A stretch of 45,848 nucleotides of DNA from an uncultured Eggerthellaceae bacterium (GTDB taxonomy: Bacteria; Actinomycetota; Coriobacteriia; Coriobacteriales; Eggerthellaceae): NCBI GenBank assembly GCA_905234635.1, contig CAJOJB010000003.1, forward strand, positions 1-45,848, read 5' to 3'. Below the pieces are notes generated by a model. The model saw nothing but the letters and a program-made list of their open reading frames with translations, was not told the DNA's origin and did no database searches. Positions within the stretch are counted from its first letter, which is position 1. Each line of letters begins with the position of its first letter. Positions 6,116 through 39,376 of the stretch are shown one piece after another. The position numbers and the translations under genes are program-made.

Positions 6116-7264
6116 TTACCCCTGCATGTTTTTGAGCTGCCCGCACGCGCCATAGATGTCGGACCCGCGCGATGTTCGCACGCTTGCTTCGATACCCGCA
6201 CGCCCCAAACGTTCAGCCCATTGTTGCATATAAGCCTCTGAACAGGGATTATAGGTACTTCCGGGCACTGTGTTCATGGGCAAAAGGTTAATGTGAACCG
6301 AAAGCTGCGCGCAATAGTCAATAAGTGCTGCCAGGTCTTCGTCGCCTGAATTAACCCCGTCAATCATTAAGTATTCAAAGCTTATGCGTCGCCCCGCAGC
6401 GCGCTGGTAATCCAAAAGCGCCGCTTTCAGCTCGTCAAGCGTTATAGACGCCACCTGCGGCATAAGCTTATCGCGCACGTCTTGCTGAGCTGCGTGAAGC
6501 GAAATAGCCAAGGTGAACTGTTCGGGCTCGCTGCCAAAGCGACGTATGCCGTCCAAAATCCCGCAGGTCGAAACAGTAATATGCCGCGCCCCAACATTCG
6601 GGCCTTTGGCGTGATTAATAATACGCAGGGCGGCAAGAGTATTGTCGTAGTTTAAAAACGGCTCGCCCTGGCCCATAACCACCACATTACTTTCGCGCTT
6701 CTCAAAATCTTTAGCCACACAAAGCAGCTGCCATACAATTTCACCAGGCGTTAGGTTTCGCGTGAAACCTTCTTGTCCTGTTGCACAAAAGGTGCAGCCC
6801 ATGGCACAGCCCACTTGGCTAGAAACGCATACGGTAAGTCGTTCGTGGCCTGTTTCCTTGTTGGGCGCGCTGGGAATGCCCACGGTTTCTACTAGGCTGC
6901 CATCGGCCAATTGCAGGATGTATTTACGCGTCCCATCTGCGGAAACGCGCTTATCAGCCACACGGGGAACCCGCAAGGGAGCGCGCTTCGCAAGCTCCTG
7001 GCGCAAGGAAGCGGGCAGGTTGGTCATGTTGTCGTAGCTTGTTGCGCCATGACCATACAGCCATTCAAAAAGCTGATTTGCGCGAAACCTTGGCTGCCCC
7101 AATTCGGCAAGCTGTGCTTCAAGCCCTTCGATCGAATAGGTATCGATGCCGTCGGCTAGGTTGTCACCAGCTCTTCCGACCGCACTTGCTTCGCGCCCTT
7201 GGGTCGATTTTGTGCCAGCGCCTTCGACTGAATACGTGTTAATTTCCTGCGTCATGTTATCCAT
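6116..7264 (-). CDS. rlmN: 23S rRNA (adenine2503-C2)-methyltransferase RlmN
   Basis: Radical SAM CTFCATGQEGFTRNLTPGEIVWQL, VVMGQGEPFLNYDN; start taken as MDNM/MTQE near 7264/7255; the 630-aa ORF extends antisense to ddl. Confidence 0.93.
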   Translation of the reverse strand: MDNMTQEINTYSVEGAGTKSTQGREASAVGRAGDNLADGIDTYSIEGLEAQLAELGQPRFRANQLFEWLYGHGATSYDNMTNLPASLRQELAKRAPLRVPRVADKRVSADGTRKYILQLADGSLVETVGIPSAPNKETGHERLTVCVSSQVGCAMGCTFCATGQEGFTRNLTPGEIVWQLLCVAKDFEKRESNVVVMGQGEPFLNYDNTLAALRIINHAKGPNVGARHITVSTCGILDGIRRFGSEPEQFTLAISLHAAQQDVRDKLMPQVASITLDELKAALLDYQRAAGRRISFEYLMIDGVNSGDEDLAALIDYCAQLSVHINLLPMNTVPGSTYNPCSEAYMQQWAERLGRAGIEASVRTSRGSDIYGACGQLKNMQG

Positions 7265-7324
7265 GATAGCGCATAGCCTTTTGCTATACTCATTACAATG
7301 CAGCCATCGCGCGAAAGGGGCACC

Positions 7325-8266
7325 ATGGCAATCGATCCACGCACCATCAAGCTTGCACTTATCGCAGGCGGCACCAGCGGTGAACGCGAAATCTCTCTTG
7401 CCTCCGGCGACGGCGCTGAAGAAGCACTGCGTGAAGCGGGCTTCAGCCCCGTTCGACTCGATCCCGCCAACAAGGAAGATCTGGCCATTCTTGTCCAGCA
7501 GCCTTTCGATGTCGCTTTTTTGTGCATGCACGGGCGCGGTGGGGAAGACGGCAGTATCCAAGGCATGCTCGATTTGCTGGGCATTCCTTACACGGGCCCC
7601 GGCGTGTGGTCGAGCGCCACGGCCATGGACAAGAACAAGTCGAAGATTTTTTACGAACGGGCCAAGGTACCTACTCCGACTTCGCTGTGTCTCACACAGG
7701 GCTATGACCAGGCCAAACTCGATGAGTTTGTAACGCGCGTAGGCTTGCCCGTGGTGGTTAAGCCTGTTTGCGAAGGCAGTGCCCTGGGTGTCGAAATTGT
7801 TTCTGAAGCAACTGAACTTACCCCCGCCATCGCGCGCTCCTTCGAACTGGATACCGCTGTGCTTGTTGAACAATACGTGGAAGGCGACGAATTGACCGTG
7901 GCCGTTTTGGGCAACGCCGAACCCTTTGCCCTGCCTGTTATTCAAATTGTTCCGCGCAACGACTTCTATGACTTCGACGCAAAATATGCCCCCGGCGGGT
8001 CGCAGCATATTTGTCCCGCCCCCTTAAGCGAAAGCGTGACGGCGCGCGCCCAGGAACTGGGTATTGCTGCCCACAAAGCACTCGATTGTCGTTGCATGTC
8101 GCGTACCGACATGATTGTCGACAAAGAAGACCAGCTTTGGGTGCTCGAAACCAATACCATCCCGGGCATGACTCAAACGTCGCTTTTGCCTGACGCCGCG
8201 CGCGCTGCGGGTATGTCTTTTCCGGAATTATGCGTGAAGCTTATCGAATTCGCACTTGAGGCTTAA
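7325..8266 (+). CDS. ddl: D-alanine--D-alanine ligase
   Basis: GGTSGEREISLASG, HGRGGEDGSIQGMLDLLGIPYTG, WVLETNTIPGMT; AAAGGGG before ATG 7325. Confidence 0.95.
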   Translation: MAIDPRTIKLALIAGGTSGEREISLASGDGAEEALREAGFSPVRLDPANKEDLAILVQQPFDVAFLCMHGRGGEDGSIQGMLDLLGIPYTGPGVWSSATAMDKNKSKIFYERAKVPTPTSLCLTQGYDQAKLDEFVTRVGLPVVVKPVCEGSALGVEIVSEATELTPAIARSFELDTAVLVEQYVEGDELTVAVLGNAEPFALPVIQIVPRNDFYDFDAKYAPGGSQHICPAPLSESVTARAQELGIAAHKALDCRCMSRTDMIVDKEDQLWVLETNTIPGMTQTSLLPDAARAAGMSFPELCVKLIEFALEA

Positions 8267-24492: not shown

Positions 24493-25599
24493 CTACAGTG
24501 TTCCTTCACTCATGCGCCCGATTGCCCACATCCAGCATGCCAGCTCACGAGCTGTGGCACAGTTGGCAACACAGGGCTTCTTGCCACGCGTATGCAGCTG
24601 TCGTCGTCTTGCAACCAGTCTCTTGGTTGCCTTAGCGGCATGGTTTTCTATCGATAGGGGCACCTCTGGTGTTGGTGCACACTTTCTCTTGGGCAGAGCG
24701 TTTGCGTAGTGCCAGGCAGATTCAACTACAAGCTTTCGTATATGGGAGTTGCCCGCCTTGGTTATCCCTCCGCGCGCCAGCCTCTCACCGCTGGAATGCT
24801 CAGATGGTACAAGACCTAACCAGGCGGCGAACGCACTGGCGTTGTCGAACCGAGAGAACACGGCAGCTTCTACCACCACGGCGAACGCCGTCATGGTCTC
24901 TACCCCTTTAAGGCAGCGAAGGGCATCCACTCGATCGCGCCAGCGATCTTGCATCGCATATTTCCTAATGTAGTTCTCAATCTGCTTCTTCGTCTGTTCG
25001 AGATGGCGCACTTCTGATATGTAGTAGGCAAAAGCATCTTCGTCAGCTTCTTGGGAGAACTCTATGGTTCGAACCCAGGTCCAAAATGCACGCGTCCAGT
25101 TGGCAATACGAGTGCCTGAAGCATTCTTTTCATCAAAGACATATCCATGACGCATGAGAAACTTCGTCATGCGGTGCCGTGCGCGCACCAGGTCGTCTCG
25201 TACGTCTTCGAGCACACGTGCAATATCACGCATGGCTTCTGTTTCCTCGTCGGGTACGAACACCTCAACAATGTTGCGGCTGGCCAACAGCCTTGCCAAA
25301 AAGACGGCATCCTCACGGTCGTTTTTCTTACGTTTGTCGGCAGCGGGTTTGTGCATCTTAGAGACTGCACCCACCACGCAGTCAACACCTAGAGCGCGCA
25401 GTTCGCGCACGAGCGCAAAACCAGTAACACCCGATTCATAGACCGCTTTGGGTTCCTCGAAGGATAAGATCCAGTCGGCCACTTCTGCTGGACAGTTGTC
25501 AAACTTCTTTGTGGTAACTTCACCTGTCAGTGGGTTAAAAGCTGCTGCGGTAATAGAACGTGCGTGTACATCGAGTCCGACTGAGGTAACATAGCTCAT
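24493..25599 (-). CDS. IS110-family transposase (DEDD N-terminal domain + Tnp_20-like C-terminal domain)
   Basis: MSYVTSVGLDVHARSITAAAFNPLTGE; KNDREDAVFLARLL; AAWLGLVPSEHSSGERLARGGITKAGNSHIRKLVVESAW; start taken at MSYV. Confidence 0.93.
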   Translation of the reverse strand: MSYVTSVGLDVHARSITAAAFNPLTGEVTTKKFDNCPAEVADWILSFEEPKAVYESGVTGFALVRELRALGVDCVVGAVSKMHKPAADKRKKNDREDAVFLARLLASRNIVEVFVPDEETEAMRDIARVLEDVRDDLVRARHRMTKFLMRHGYVFDEKNASGTRIANWTRAFWTWVRTIEFSQEADEDAFAYYISEVRHLEQTKKQIENYIRKYAMQDRWRDRVDALRCLKGVETMTAFAVVVEAAVFSRFDNASAFAAWLGLVPSEHSSGERLARGGITKAGNSHIRKLVVESAWHYANALPKRKCAPTPEVPLSIENHAAKATKRLVARRRQLHTRGKKPCVANCATARELACWMWAIGRMSEGTL

Positions 25600-25679
25600 G
25601 GGAAGCCCCTTCCATGTATGTGGCAACCTGGCCACGGTTGATAACTACACCAACCATTATCGGCCCCGATCCACGGTTT

Positions 25680-27256: not shown

Positions 27257-27406
27257 TTATTCGCCTATGTTTCGTCCGTCGTCAAAACAGTAGTTGTAGT
27301 CGTCGCACTTGTCGCCCCAGCCGCCAGCTACGCTCTCGAGCTGTTCGTCGGAAAGCTCGTAGCCCTCCTCTTGCGGCTGGTCCGGCACCATCTGGCTGCA
27401 GACCAT
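27257..27406 (-). pseudogene. Chimeric/truncated double-glycine (Nif11-type) RiPP precursor
   Basis: MVCSQMVPDQPQEEGYELSDEQLESVAGG-WGDKCDDYNYCFDDGRNIGE*; the leader N-terminus is replaced by antisense of a TIGR00266 gene fragment; not in ORF track. Confidence 0.55.
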
Positions 27407-34681: not shown

Positions 34682-34756
34682 GTTGACTCCTTAAGTTTTA
34701 CCGCCACTATTTTACCGCCAATGGCGGTATAAAAGCAACCGCGACAGGAGGATCTC

Positions 34757-35326
34757 ATGGCCGAATCTGCAATCAACACCAAGGCATTTCGTTCTTTGAG
34801 CTACGGCGTCTACATTATCAGCGCGTTGAACGGCAGCAAAAAGGCAGGTTGCGTGGTTAACACGTTCCAGCAGCTGACCTCGGCGCCCGCGCGTGTGAGC
34901 GTAACCATTAATAAAGAAAACGCCACGACAGGCGTAGTGCTTGAGTCTGGCCGCTTTGAAGCGAACGTGCTAGCGGAAAGCGCGCCCATGGAGCTCATTG
35001 GGCTCTTCGGTTTTCAAAGCAGCAACGACGTGGACAAGTTTGCGGAAACCGCCCATGCGCTTGACGCGGCCGGCGACGCCGCCACCGATGCCACCCCCGC
35101 TGGTGCCAGTGCTGCTGCGCCCGCCGACGCTGCTGCCGAAACTACCGCCGCCGACGCCGCTGCCGAAACTACCGCCGCTGAAGCAGCCCCTTCAGCCGTT
35201 CGCCATGGCTGGAGGTGCACCTTCTGTGGCTATGTGGAAGAAGGCTACGGCGAACTGCCCGAAGACTACAAATGCCCCATCTGCGGCAAGGGTCGCGATA
35301 TGTTCAACCGCGTTGAATTGGGCTAA
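34757..35326 (+). CDS. Partial flavin-reductase-like domain + Ala-rich linker + rubredoxin-like domain
   Basis: RSLSYGVYIISALNGSKKAGCVVNTFQQLTSAPARVSVTINK; C-terminal WRCTFCGYVEEGYGELPEDYKCPICGKG. Confidence 0.88.
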   Translation: MAESAINTKAFRSLSYGVYIISALNGSKKAGCVVNTFQQLTSAPARVSVTINKENATTGVVLESGRFEANVLAESAPMELIGLFGFQSSNDVDKFAETAHALDAAGDAATDATPAGASAAAPADAAAETTAADAAAETTAAEAAPSAVRHGWRCTFCGYVEEGYGELPEDYKCPICGKGRDMFNRVELG

Positions 35327-35374
35327 AACTTCAACCTTGAAACACAGGGGAAAGTTCCCGGTGTCCCAAAAAGT

Positions 35375-35394
35375 ACTGCCCCAAGCGGGGCAGT
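35375..35394. terminator. Hairpin between convergent genes
   Basis: ACTGCCCC-AAGC-GGGGCAGT. Confidence 0.6.
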
Positions 35395-35429
35395 ATTCGT
35401 TGACCATCAAGTTTGTTACGGCACCAGCA

Positions 35430-35630
35430 TTACGCGATATCCGCTGAACAGACCTGGTAGCATTCTCGGTCGGAACACCACAGCGTCCAGTGAATGCCAC
35501 CCGAAATAGCCTTGAGCTCTTCGTCGGTCAATTCATAGCCTTCTTTTTCGGCAAGAGCTACAAGCTCTTCTGGCGTCTTGCACGCGCGGGCCTTTTCCTG
35601 CAGTTCAGGGCTTAATTCTTTGAAATCCAT
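35430..35630 (-). CDS. Nif11-type leader RiPP precursor peptide
   Basis: 66 aa MDFKELSPELQEKARACKTPEELVALAEKEGYELTDEELKAISGG-IHWTLWCSDRECYQVCSADIA; GGAGG upstream. Confidence 0.8.
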   Translation of the reverse strand: MDFKELSPELQEKARACKTPEELVALAEKEGYELTDEELKAISGGIHWTLWCSDRECYQVCSADIA

Positions 35631-35726
35631 GTCTGCCTCCTCGTTCGTCTTTTCTGTTACCGCCAACTCTACATGCGAAGTGTGTACGCAAGCTAAAGTA
35701 GTCGCTCTGCAATATATAATGAAAAC

Positions 35727-36260
35727 ATGAGATTATTTGTCGCTGCAGAATTGCCCGATGGTGTGCTGGATGCCCTGGTGGAAACGCAGGCCGCACTGCG
35801 AGAATGCGTTACAGGTCGCTACGTCGCACCCGATTCCTTGCATGTGACGCTCGCGTTTTTGGGTAGCGTGGATGCATCGCGTGTCCCTGCAATCGCGGAC
35901 GCCCTGGACGATGCCTGCGCAGGGCTCGCTTCTTTCAATGTAACCACGACGGGGTTGGGCAGTTTTGGGCGGCGCGCCCAAGCAACGCTCTGGCAGGGTT
36001 TTGGCACAAGCGACGAATTCACCCACCTGGCTCAATGCGTTCGAAAGGAACTTACGGATAGGGGCTTTTCGTTCGACAGCAAGACCTTTTTGCCGCACGT
36101 TACGCTTATGCGCAAGGCCGACATTCGCAGTGGCGTGCTGCCCATGCCATCCATTGCGAGCGGCGCAATAAGCACGGTGACCTTATTCAAGTCCGACCTT
36201 TCGGGCCCTTACCCCGTGTACGAACCCCTTCACCGTGTGGTGCTTGCCGAAAGCGCATAA
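35727..36260 (+). CDS. thpR: RNA 2',3'-cyclic phosphodiesterase
   Basis: Two HxTx motifs: HVTLAFLG and HVTLMRKA. Confidence 0.93.
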   Translation: MRLFVAAELPDGVLDALVETQAALRECVTGRYVAPDSLHVTLAFLGSVDASRVPAIADALDDACAGLASFNVTTTGLGSFGRRAQATLWQGFGTSDEFTHLAQCVRKELTDRGFSFDSKTFLPHVTLMRKADIRSGVLPMPSIASGAISTVTLFKSDLSGPYPVYEPLHRVVLAESA

Positions 36261-37589: not shown

Positions 37590-39008
37590 TTACTGTAGCT
37601 TTTCGAGCCAGGCGATAAATGCGTCTCTGTTGGCATCGCGTCCATCGCACCACAAAGCAGGCAACTTATCCCAGTTGACCTGGCCTTTATGGTCGAATGA
37701 CCCCTGCGCTTCCTTCAGGTTTTCTTCGAAGCGTGCTGCGCCGTCATGGGCACAGTTCGCCACGGTCTTCAAGCCCTGCGCGTCTTCAATTTCCAGGATG
37801 GTGGCAGCAAGTAGCATCGCAAGCGAACCGCCGTCCGCCCCTTCAGGCACGCCAAAAACATTCCGATAAAGGTACGTGGTGTTAATGAAGCGCTTTATGT
37901 TCAGCGGACTGGGGTTCTTCAGCAGGGTGCTAATCACGCGCGCGAATTCGCCAGCAAGTTCTTTGTCGTCCTTCAGAAGACCGCCGATATATTTTTCTAG
38001 GTTGCATACGCTTGAAGGAATGCGAAGTGGCACTTGGACAATCTTTTCGAAGAACATCTTCTTGCGGCTTTCGTCGACCTTGTCGCCGTGCTTTTTGCGC
38101 ACACCGTCGCGTACGGTCTGTTCGTCAATTGCGTATATAAAAATGCACCTGGGGCAGTCGAGGTAGGTCTTAACCTGTTCCATCAGACCTATGGCAGCTT
38201 CGGGGTCGACGTGGTCGAGGCCGTCGACGAATACGACGAATCGGGAATCGGCCGTTTTACCGTTTTTCTGCGCGGCCTGCAAGAGTGCTTTAGAAAATTC
38301 GTTTTGGAAGTTTTCGATGTCTTTGCTGCTTATAAAATCTTCTTTCGATTCAGATTTTGAGGCAGCCTCTGAACCAAAGATTGAATCGAATATCGTGCCA
38401 AGCAAAGAATCGTCGTCGGACCTTTTCCCGTTGCTGTAATTCGAGCCGACAATTTGCGAAACGGTCGACACTAGTCCAGCGAAATTTTCCGCTTCTTCGC
38501 GTGTAATGCCCGAAATTTTCAAGAGCATTTCAACGAAAAGGTTTTCGAGAAGGCTAGCGCGCGGGTTTGCGACCGACTGCTGCCAGGCGTCAACGCTTGC
38601 GACGGTAATAATGTCTTCACAGTACTGCGACATGCGCGAGCTGGATGTTTTCGCGGGTTCAGCTTTTATGGGTTCGCCCTTCGTAAAAGCGTTGGCCACC
38701 AGTTCGCCTTCCATGAAAGTATCCGCTGCCAACTCGCCTTCCGCGGGCGCGCTTTCGTTCGTCTCGCTTTCCACCGACGCATCTTCGCCCGAGTTTCTTT
38801 CTGCGCGAAGTTCGGCGTCCAGCAGGTTAATGAGCGAAGTTTTGCCCGAGCCCCAGTCGCCCTGGATTGCAATGGTCATGGGCGTTGCACATTCTTTGAT
38901 GAATTCCGCAATTCCCTTTACGAAGCCATCACGGAAAAGAGTGTCTTTGTTTGTTGCGACGTCGGCCAGGGTTCGAATCTTTGGCGACGCATCAATTTGA
39001 TTAGCCAT
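37590..39008 (-). CDS. KAP-family P-loop NTPase
   Basis: IAIQGDWGSGKTSLINLLDAELR; RFVVFVDGLDHVDPEAAIGLMEQVKTYLDCPRCIFIYAIDEQTV; NPSPLNIKRFINTTYLY. Confidence 0.9.
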   Translation of the reverse strand: MANQIDASPKIRTLADVATNKDTLFRDGFVKGIAEFIKECATPMTIAIQGDWGSGKTSLINLLDAELRAERNSGEDASVESETNESAPAEGELAADTFMEGELVANAFTKGEPIKAEPAKTSSSRMSQYCEDIITVASVDAWQQSVANPRASLLENLFVEMLLKISGITREEAENFAGLVSTVSQIVGSNYSNGKRSDDDSLLGTIFDSIFGSEAASKSESKEDFISSKDIENFQNEFSKALLQAAQKNGKTADSRFVVFVDGLDHVDPEAAIGLMEQVKTYLDCPRCIFIYAIDEQTVRDGVRKKHGDKVDESRKKMFFEKIVQVPLRIPSSVCNLEKYIGGLLKDDKELAGEFARVISTLLKNPSPLNIKRFINTTYLYRNVFGVPEGADGGSLAMLLAATILEIEDAQGLKTVANCAHDGAARFEENLKEAQGSFDHKGQVNWDKLPALWCDGRDANRDAFIAWLEKLQ

Positions 39009-39376
39009 GGTAGTACCAGTTTCCCTTTTCTTCAGTTGCTTTTACGTCGTATATATTGTACGCACCGTGGCATGTTTTGTCTTGCTGCCTCCTGAGCTTT
39101 GCCCGCGGTGGGGAACAGAGAACTGTCCTCTGTGTTCTTCCCTTGTGTTCTTGCTGCCTGCCACCCTATGTTCTGCTGGGTAATTGGGACAATCGGACGG
39201 AAAACTGCGCATAAGTTATGAAAAGGTTCGCGTTTCATTTGGGGGACGCGCTTGAACAGCTTGTGGCAATGCTTAATCAGCTGCGCGCTCAAAACGGCAA
39301 AGAAAGCGGTGAAGTATGTGCGTAGTAAAAGGTCTTTGGAAGTTTACTCGCTGGTTATTCAGAGCAGCGTTTAGGT

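Follow-up and report, generated by a model that had tools for sequence, protein, structure and literature searches.

The closest described relatives of the system reported here are the prochlorosins and synechococsins, in which a conserved Nif11 leader precedes a hypervariable core and scattered precursors are served in trans by the promiscuous ProcM/SyncM (PMC10783134). Nif11 precursors also travel with the genes of NHLP/N11P export (TIGR03794/03796/03797), namely those for a peptidase-ABC transporter, a second ABC transporter and an HlyD protein (Haft 2010, PMC2887384), and Eggerthella lenta is already known to have NHLP-type precursors, with leaders of 71 residues (PMC4289311). NCBIfam already has a category for radical SAM enzymes whose annotated substrates are Nif11-class peptides (TIGR04064, TIGR04103). 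In the literature that we searched, mostly from outside the subscription journals, no Nif11/radical SAM system is described from the rumen or from Coriobacteriia.

Here we analyse a Nif11-type precursor gene in a stretch of 45,848 nucleotides (the window). The window is from contig C3 of the metagenome-assembled genome (MAG; 1.71 Mb, 81% complete, 132 contigs) of an uncultured gut member of the Coriobacteriia. Like prochlorosins, precursors of this type are scattered and join a conserved leader (59% mean pairwise identity) to a hypervariable core (26%, as against 21% for shuffled cores). Unlike prochlorosins, they are paired with a candidate enzyme of the radical SAM/SPASM type, occur in gut Coriobacteriia, carry a constant early Trp and share a promoter-like motif. 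Since the 81%-complete assembly yielded no LanM, we do not regard the system as a prochlorosin one. We propose, with a probability of about two in three, that the window gene encodes one of the substrates of a RiPP system dispersed over the genome, in which a maturase encoded on contig C18 acts in trans, export is by the transporter of the same cassette, and expression mostly follows a shared promoter.

An intact Nif11-type precursor gene in the window

The 66-amino-acid open reading frame at 35430-35630 (minus strand) has exactly the sequence, frame and strand given in the first-pass annotation, and we confirm it as an intact, genuine Nif11-leader precursor gene. Its product scores above the cut-off of both leader models, PF07862 (39.9 bits against 23.8, E=5.1e-10) and TIGR03798 (34.8 bits against 32.3), so that the Nif11 leader proposed for it stands. 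The Nif11 model covers residues 7-39 of the leader MDFKELSPELQEKARACKTPEELVALAEKEGYELTDEELKAISGG (35496-35630, minus strand), which ends in the double-Gly cleavage site ELTDEELKAISGG. The 21-residue core that follows, IHWTLWCSDRECYQVCSADIA (35433-35495, minus strand), had been described as holding two Cys and two Trp; the Trp residues are indeed two, at positions 3 and 6, but there are three Cys, at 7, 12 and 16. The ribosome-binding site was rightly called good: GAGGAGG (35636-35642, minus strand) lies 5 nt before the ATG. On the other side of the gene we found an intrinsic terminator, a 9-bp stem followed by CTTTTT (35374-35395, minus strand), and with this terminator and its strong ribosome site the precursor looks like a one-gene unit. 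Comparison of the window leader with the leaders of 63 relatives gave 780, 351 and 1638 differences at codon positions 1, 2 and 3, respectively. This excess at third positions indicates that the precursor evolves as a protein, under protein-level constraint.

Cores vary around an early Trp

From related genomes we collected about 125 precursors, up to 24 per genome and spread over many contigs; core statistics were calculated on 112 short cores. A Trp falls within the first five residues in 100 of these 112, where within-core shuffling predicts 36 and never exceeded 53, and 110 of the 112 contain at least one Cys. Over all cores, C[ST]D is enriched (15 occurrences against 2.9 expected). The CxxxD/E spacing is not enriched in the collected cores, and we dropped it as a ranthipeptide signature. 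A few cores are shared between genera. One of them, WSC[DS]SFGERSDCHLNQWYE, recurs in six genomes that represent several genera (L035, L158, L042, L080, L136, L172), against a background of freely varying cores.

The window core conforms to the general family pattern of an early Trp followed by Cys, and at that level it is conserved in relatives. The exact core has no recognisable ortholog among the collected precursors, the best scores being no better than those of its own shuffles. By eye, it is like cores of the form W..C[ST]DxxC; since the shuffled window core scores equally well, this likeness is only suggestive, although C[ST]D is enriched over all cores.

A subset of the family departs from the short-core form. 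Fifteen of 144 precursors (L174, L152, L076, L136, L201, L131, L138 and others) have zinc-ribbon-like cores of 33-50 residues with two CxxC pairs, mostly keeping the early Trp; they resemble small zinc proteins placed behind a RiPP leader, and hardly resemble cross-linked peptides. Double-Gly leaders also occur on unmodified bacteriocins. Both points speak for a reading in which the Nif11 leader serves only C39 cleavage and export, and the product is a plain Cys-containing or disulfide-bonded peptide. The constant early Trp and Cys of the cores, together with the repeated adjacency of a SPASM maturase to family precursors (see below), make this reading very improbable.

Candidate maturation and export genes lie outside the window

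The first-pass annotation had reported no LanM, radical SAM, YcaO or C39 gene in the window. We likewise found no RiPP maturase in the window and no RiPP enzymes near the precursor. The window does contain one radical SAM gene (6116-8008, minus strand), but it encodes RlmN and was rejected as a maturation partner. In the 81%-complete assembly neither a LanC-like domain (PF05147) nor YcaO (PF02624) gave a match, and LanM/LanC and YcaO were set aside as partners. Among the 14 radical SAM genes of the source genome, RiPP-enzyme-like ones occur only on contigs C18 and C59. Ten of the 14 were identified by family model: AhbC and RlmN scored above the family cut-off, and HemN/HemW-like, MiaB, TIGR03960, NrdG and AmmeMemoRadiSam members were recognised on fragments. 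MoaA, MtaB, RimO and Elp3 were assigned by eye from their translations.

The C18 genes form a cassette encoding an ECF sigma factor, a short HlyD protein, a peptidase-ABC transporter, a second ABC transporter, a STAS protein, an isopentenyl (IPP) isomerase and a radical SAM/SPASM enzyme. The relative G004 (RUG11413, 96% complete, 10 contigs) shares it at 82-95% identity, and its presence in this nearly complete genome indicates that the C18 cassette is not a binning accident. As in NHLP/N11P export, genes for a peptidase-ABC transporter, a second ABC transporter and HlyD stand together. The C39-peptidase transporter exceeds its cut-off (TIGR03796, 934 bits against 853). The cassette differs from the described systems in that the second ABC transporter falls just below its cut-off (TIGR03797, 688 of 709 bits), HlyD is a short, 170-aa form conserved in relatives that reaches 56 of 156 bits against TIGR03794, and the accompanying enzyme is a radical SAM protein instead of a TOMM or lanthionine synthetase.

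The C18 maturase belongs to no named family at its cut-off. The nearest family is TIGR04463 (212/525 bits); for PapB (106/340) and the SCIFF maturase (59/425) the scores also fall far below the cut-offs, and with 59 of 519 bits the enzyme is not a member of TIGR04064. A structure model built from 51 sequences (pLDDT 90.7), which replaced a poorer one from 15 sequences (pLDDT 55), shows an N-terminal domain of three strands followed by three helices, and its best solved relative in structure comparison is CteB, a thioether-forming maturase. The system thus resembles the ranthipeptides (CteB/SCIFF, PapB/freyrasin) in its SPASM radical SAM maturase and Cys-rich cores, and differs from them in scoring far below the named maturase families, in its Nif11 leader and in its core spacing.

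At least three further Nif11 precursors are encoded in the source genome, two on C59 (cores WISCPGVCEEVGCVGDSWC and AHTCNDVVCWEVCPFLDLLEAGFLV) and one on C53 (core ANWCWSVCPKYDDSRYNPSMPG); C84 carries a more divergent Gly-Gly precursor. The genome thus holds other leaders as well as maturation and export genes away from the window, which supports the earlier suggestion that the stand-alone precursor may be modified in trans.

The second RiPP-like enzyme offers a different partner. On C59 a small radical SAM gene sits between the two Nif11 precursors, small radical SAM homologues in G117, G120, G121 and G128 also adjoin Nif11 precursors, and the leader of the window precursor shares its type with that of the first C59 precursor. 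The window precursor might then be a substrate of the C59 enzyme and not of the C18 maturase. We consider this unlikely: G001-G005, which belong to the same genus, yielded no small C59-type enzyme, not even G004, which is 96% complete and has at least 11 precursors, whereas a C18-type maturase was found in every genome of the genus except G001.

Maturase and precursors occur together across genomes

The pairing of the C18-type maturase with Nif11 precursors extends beyond the genus. Among 140 genomes of the family, Nif11 precursors are present in all 21 that encode a C18-type maturase and in only 14 of the 119 that do not (Fisher 5e-16, a value inflated by kinship, for which it is uncorrected). 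In named genomes, a Nif11 precursor lies within 1.5 kb of the maturase gene, often within 200 bp, at 27 of 55 loci, including those of Oribacterium sp. C9 and Lachnospiraceae JC7. The hosts comprise ruminant-gut Coriobacteriaceae, Eggerthellaceae, Atopobiaceae and Olsenella on the side of the Coriobacteriia, and elsewhere Clostridia, Lachnospiraceae and Flexilinea/Chloroflexi. Among cultured relatives, Olsenella intestinalis KCTC 25379 has a maturase of 65% identity. At the remaining loci, among them those of the source genome and G004, no precursor is close by, and if precursors are served there at all, this must happen over a distance.

A promoter-like motif shared by precursors and cassette

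Upstream of the precursors we found a bipartite motif, CGAGACGGA-N12/13-GCGTATAAT, placed about 40-90 bases before the start codons. Trained on one half of the precursors and tried on the other, it was found in 56-66% of the held-out precursors and in 3.4% of 358 control genes; overall, some 60% of precursors carry it and about one third lack it. The motif also stands upstream of the C18 cassette (20.5 bits), where it is the only site of at least 12 bits in 20 kb, and at the same place before the G004 cassette (22.7 bits). It precedes 12 of 19 maturase genes, compared with 3.75% of random stretches. When G000 and G004 were searched with a strict form of the pattern, 16 sites were found (6 and 10, against 4 and 6 for a reversed-pattern control), and nine of them stand before the cassette or before Gly-Gly precursors. 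As these counts exceed the control only moderately, the pattern is informative through what follows it and not through its count. By itself, the pattern brought up Gly-Gly precursors overlooked by the Pfam model.

That precursors, maturase genes and export operon have this motif in common suggests a single dispersed regulon. In spacing and sequence the motif resembles an ECF-type promoter, which would make the ECF sigma factor of the cassette the obvious candidate for its recognition. The regulon may also take in non-RiPP genes, as a strong copy of the motif (19.4 bits; 39055-39084, minus strand) lies in the window directly upstream of a gene for a KAP-type P-loop NTPase (37590-39008, minus strand).

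Two conserved proteins are encoded behind the motif. The first open reading frame after the cassette promoter specifies an 81-aa protein ending in DEEDLELLAAAGIILPPLDETTR (L053:2824-3069; same place in L219), which has no Pfam match and is possibly an anti-sigma or leader-like protein. The other is a 151-aa membrane protein, a possible immunity protein, found in both G000 (C36:16640) and G004 (C7:28505) (L357, L366).

A proposed model for maturation in trans

How might the C18 genes act on the window precursor? With its N-terminal domain, the C18 radical SAM/SPASM maturase would recognise and bind the Nif11 leader, and the radical SAM and SPASM clusters of the enzyme would then cross-link the Trp/Cys-rich core, through a Cys thioether or a link involving Trp. 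The C39-peptidase domain of the transporter is predicted to cut after Gly-Gly, and the peptide would be exported together with the partner ABC protein. Many lone precursors would be served in trans in this way, most of them co-activated through the shared promoter, which is probably under the control of the cassette's ECF sigma factor.

We regard as evenly balanced the broader proposal of a combinatorial library, dispersed through the genome and controlled by a sigma factor, in which many unlinked Nif11 precursors, their Trp/Cys cores hypervariable, depend on a single promiscuous radical SAM/SPASM enzyme and a single exporter, and in which a dedicated promoter switches on most of the precursors together. 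Ruminant-gut Coriobacteriia would then possess a radical SAM equivalent of the prochlorosin system, with a maturase that has spread to Clostridia and Chloroflexi. Since mining based on gene clusters overlooks precursors encoded at a distance from their enzyme, radical SAM/Nif11 chemistry is probably undercounted; a rule that combines leader and promoter finds such dispersed precursors. If one radical SAM enzyme accepts at least ten unrelated cores per cell, nature would be offering a promiscuous tool with which to cyclise peptides; the promoter in common opens the pairing in trans to direct test.

Surroundings and turnover of the window precursor

The window precursor is flanked by a convergent flavin reductase-rubredoxin gene (34757-35326, plus strand) and a divergent LigT/ThpR-type gene (35727-36260, plus strand). 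G004 keeps the window's order of adjacent genes for flavin reductase, ThpR and an aldo-keto reductase, and no precursor gene separates those for flavin reductase and ThpR; the precursor was therefore either gained in the window genome or lost in G004. A search of viral contigs, phages and plasmids gave no match, and carriage of the precursor by phage or plasmid was dropped.

A second Nif11 precursor lies 8 kb away (27257-27406, minus strand). It has lost the 5' half of its leader and is missed by the Pfam model; an HMM trained on the family detects it (30 bits, E=1.5e-8). Its core, WGDKCDDYNYCFDDGRNIGE, is near-identical to cores of precursors in G120 and G124. Precursor genes evidently turn over fast. 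A gene for an IS110-family transposase (24493-25635, minus strand) is close to the decayed copy, consistent with a plastic region.

The regulon motif is absent upstream of the window precursor, where the best score is 1.7 bits. This absence, the empty site in G004 and the lack of an orthologous core all count against the window gene being a C18 substrate in trans, as does the 81% completeness of the MAG; together, the first three suggest that the precursor was perhaps newly gained or is poorly expressed, and it may be young or silent. Taken further, and with a clearly decayed precursor so near, they would fit a decaying or silent orphan, gained or left behind, whose expression has been lost. 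The gene nevertheless has a complete reading frame with a canonical leader, is preceded by a strong ribosome site and is followed by a terminator of its own, and the motif is also missing from that third of the family's precursors noted above. We therefore judge it improbable that the window gene is such an orphan, and continue to favour a substrate of the C18 system.

A palindrome around ACCGCCA(A/T)TGGCGGT was seen at 34690-34740 of the window, upstream of a Fic gene. It occurs in G004 as well (L054:18808-18840), upstream of a Nif11 precursor that neighbours a nucleotidyltransferase/HEPN-like gene pair, the pair being read by eye.
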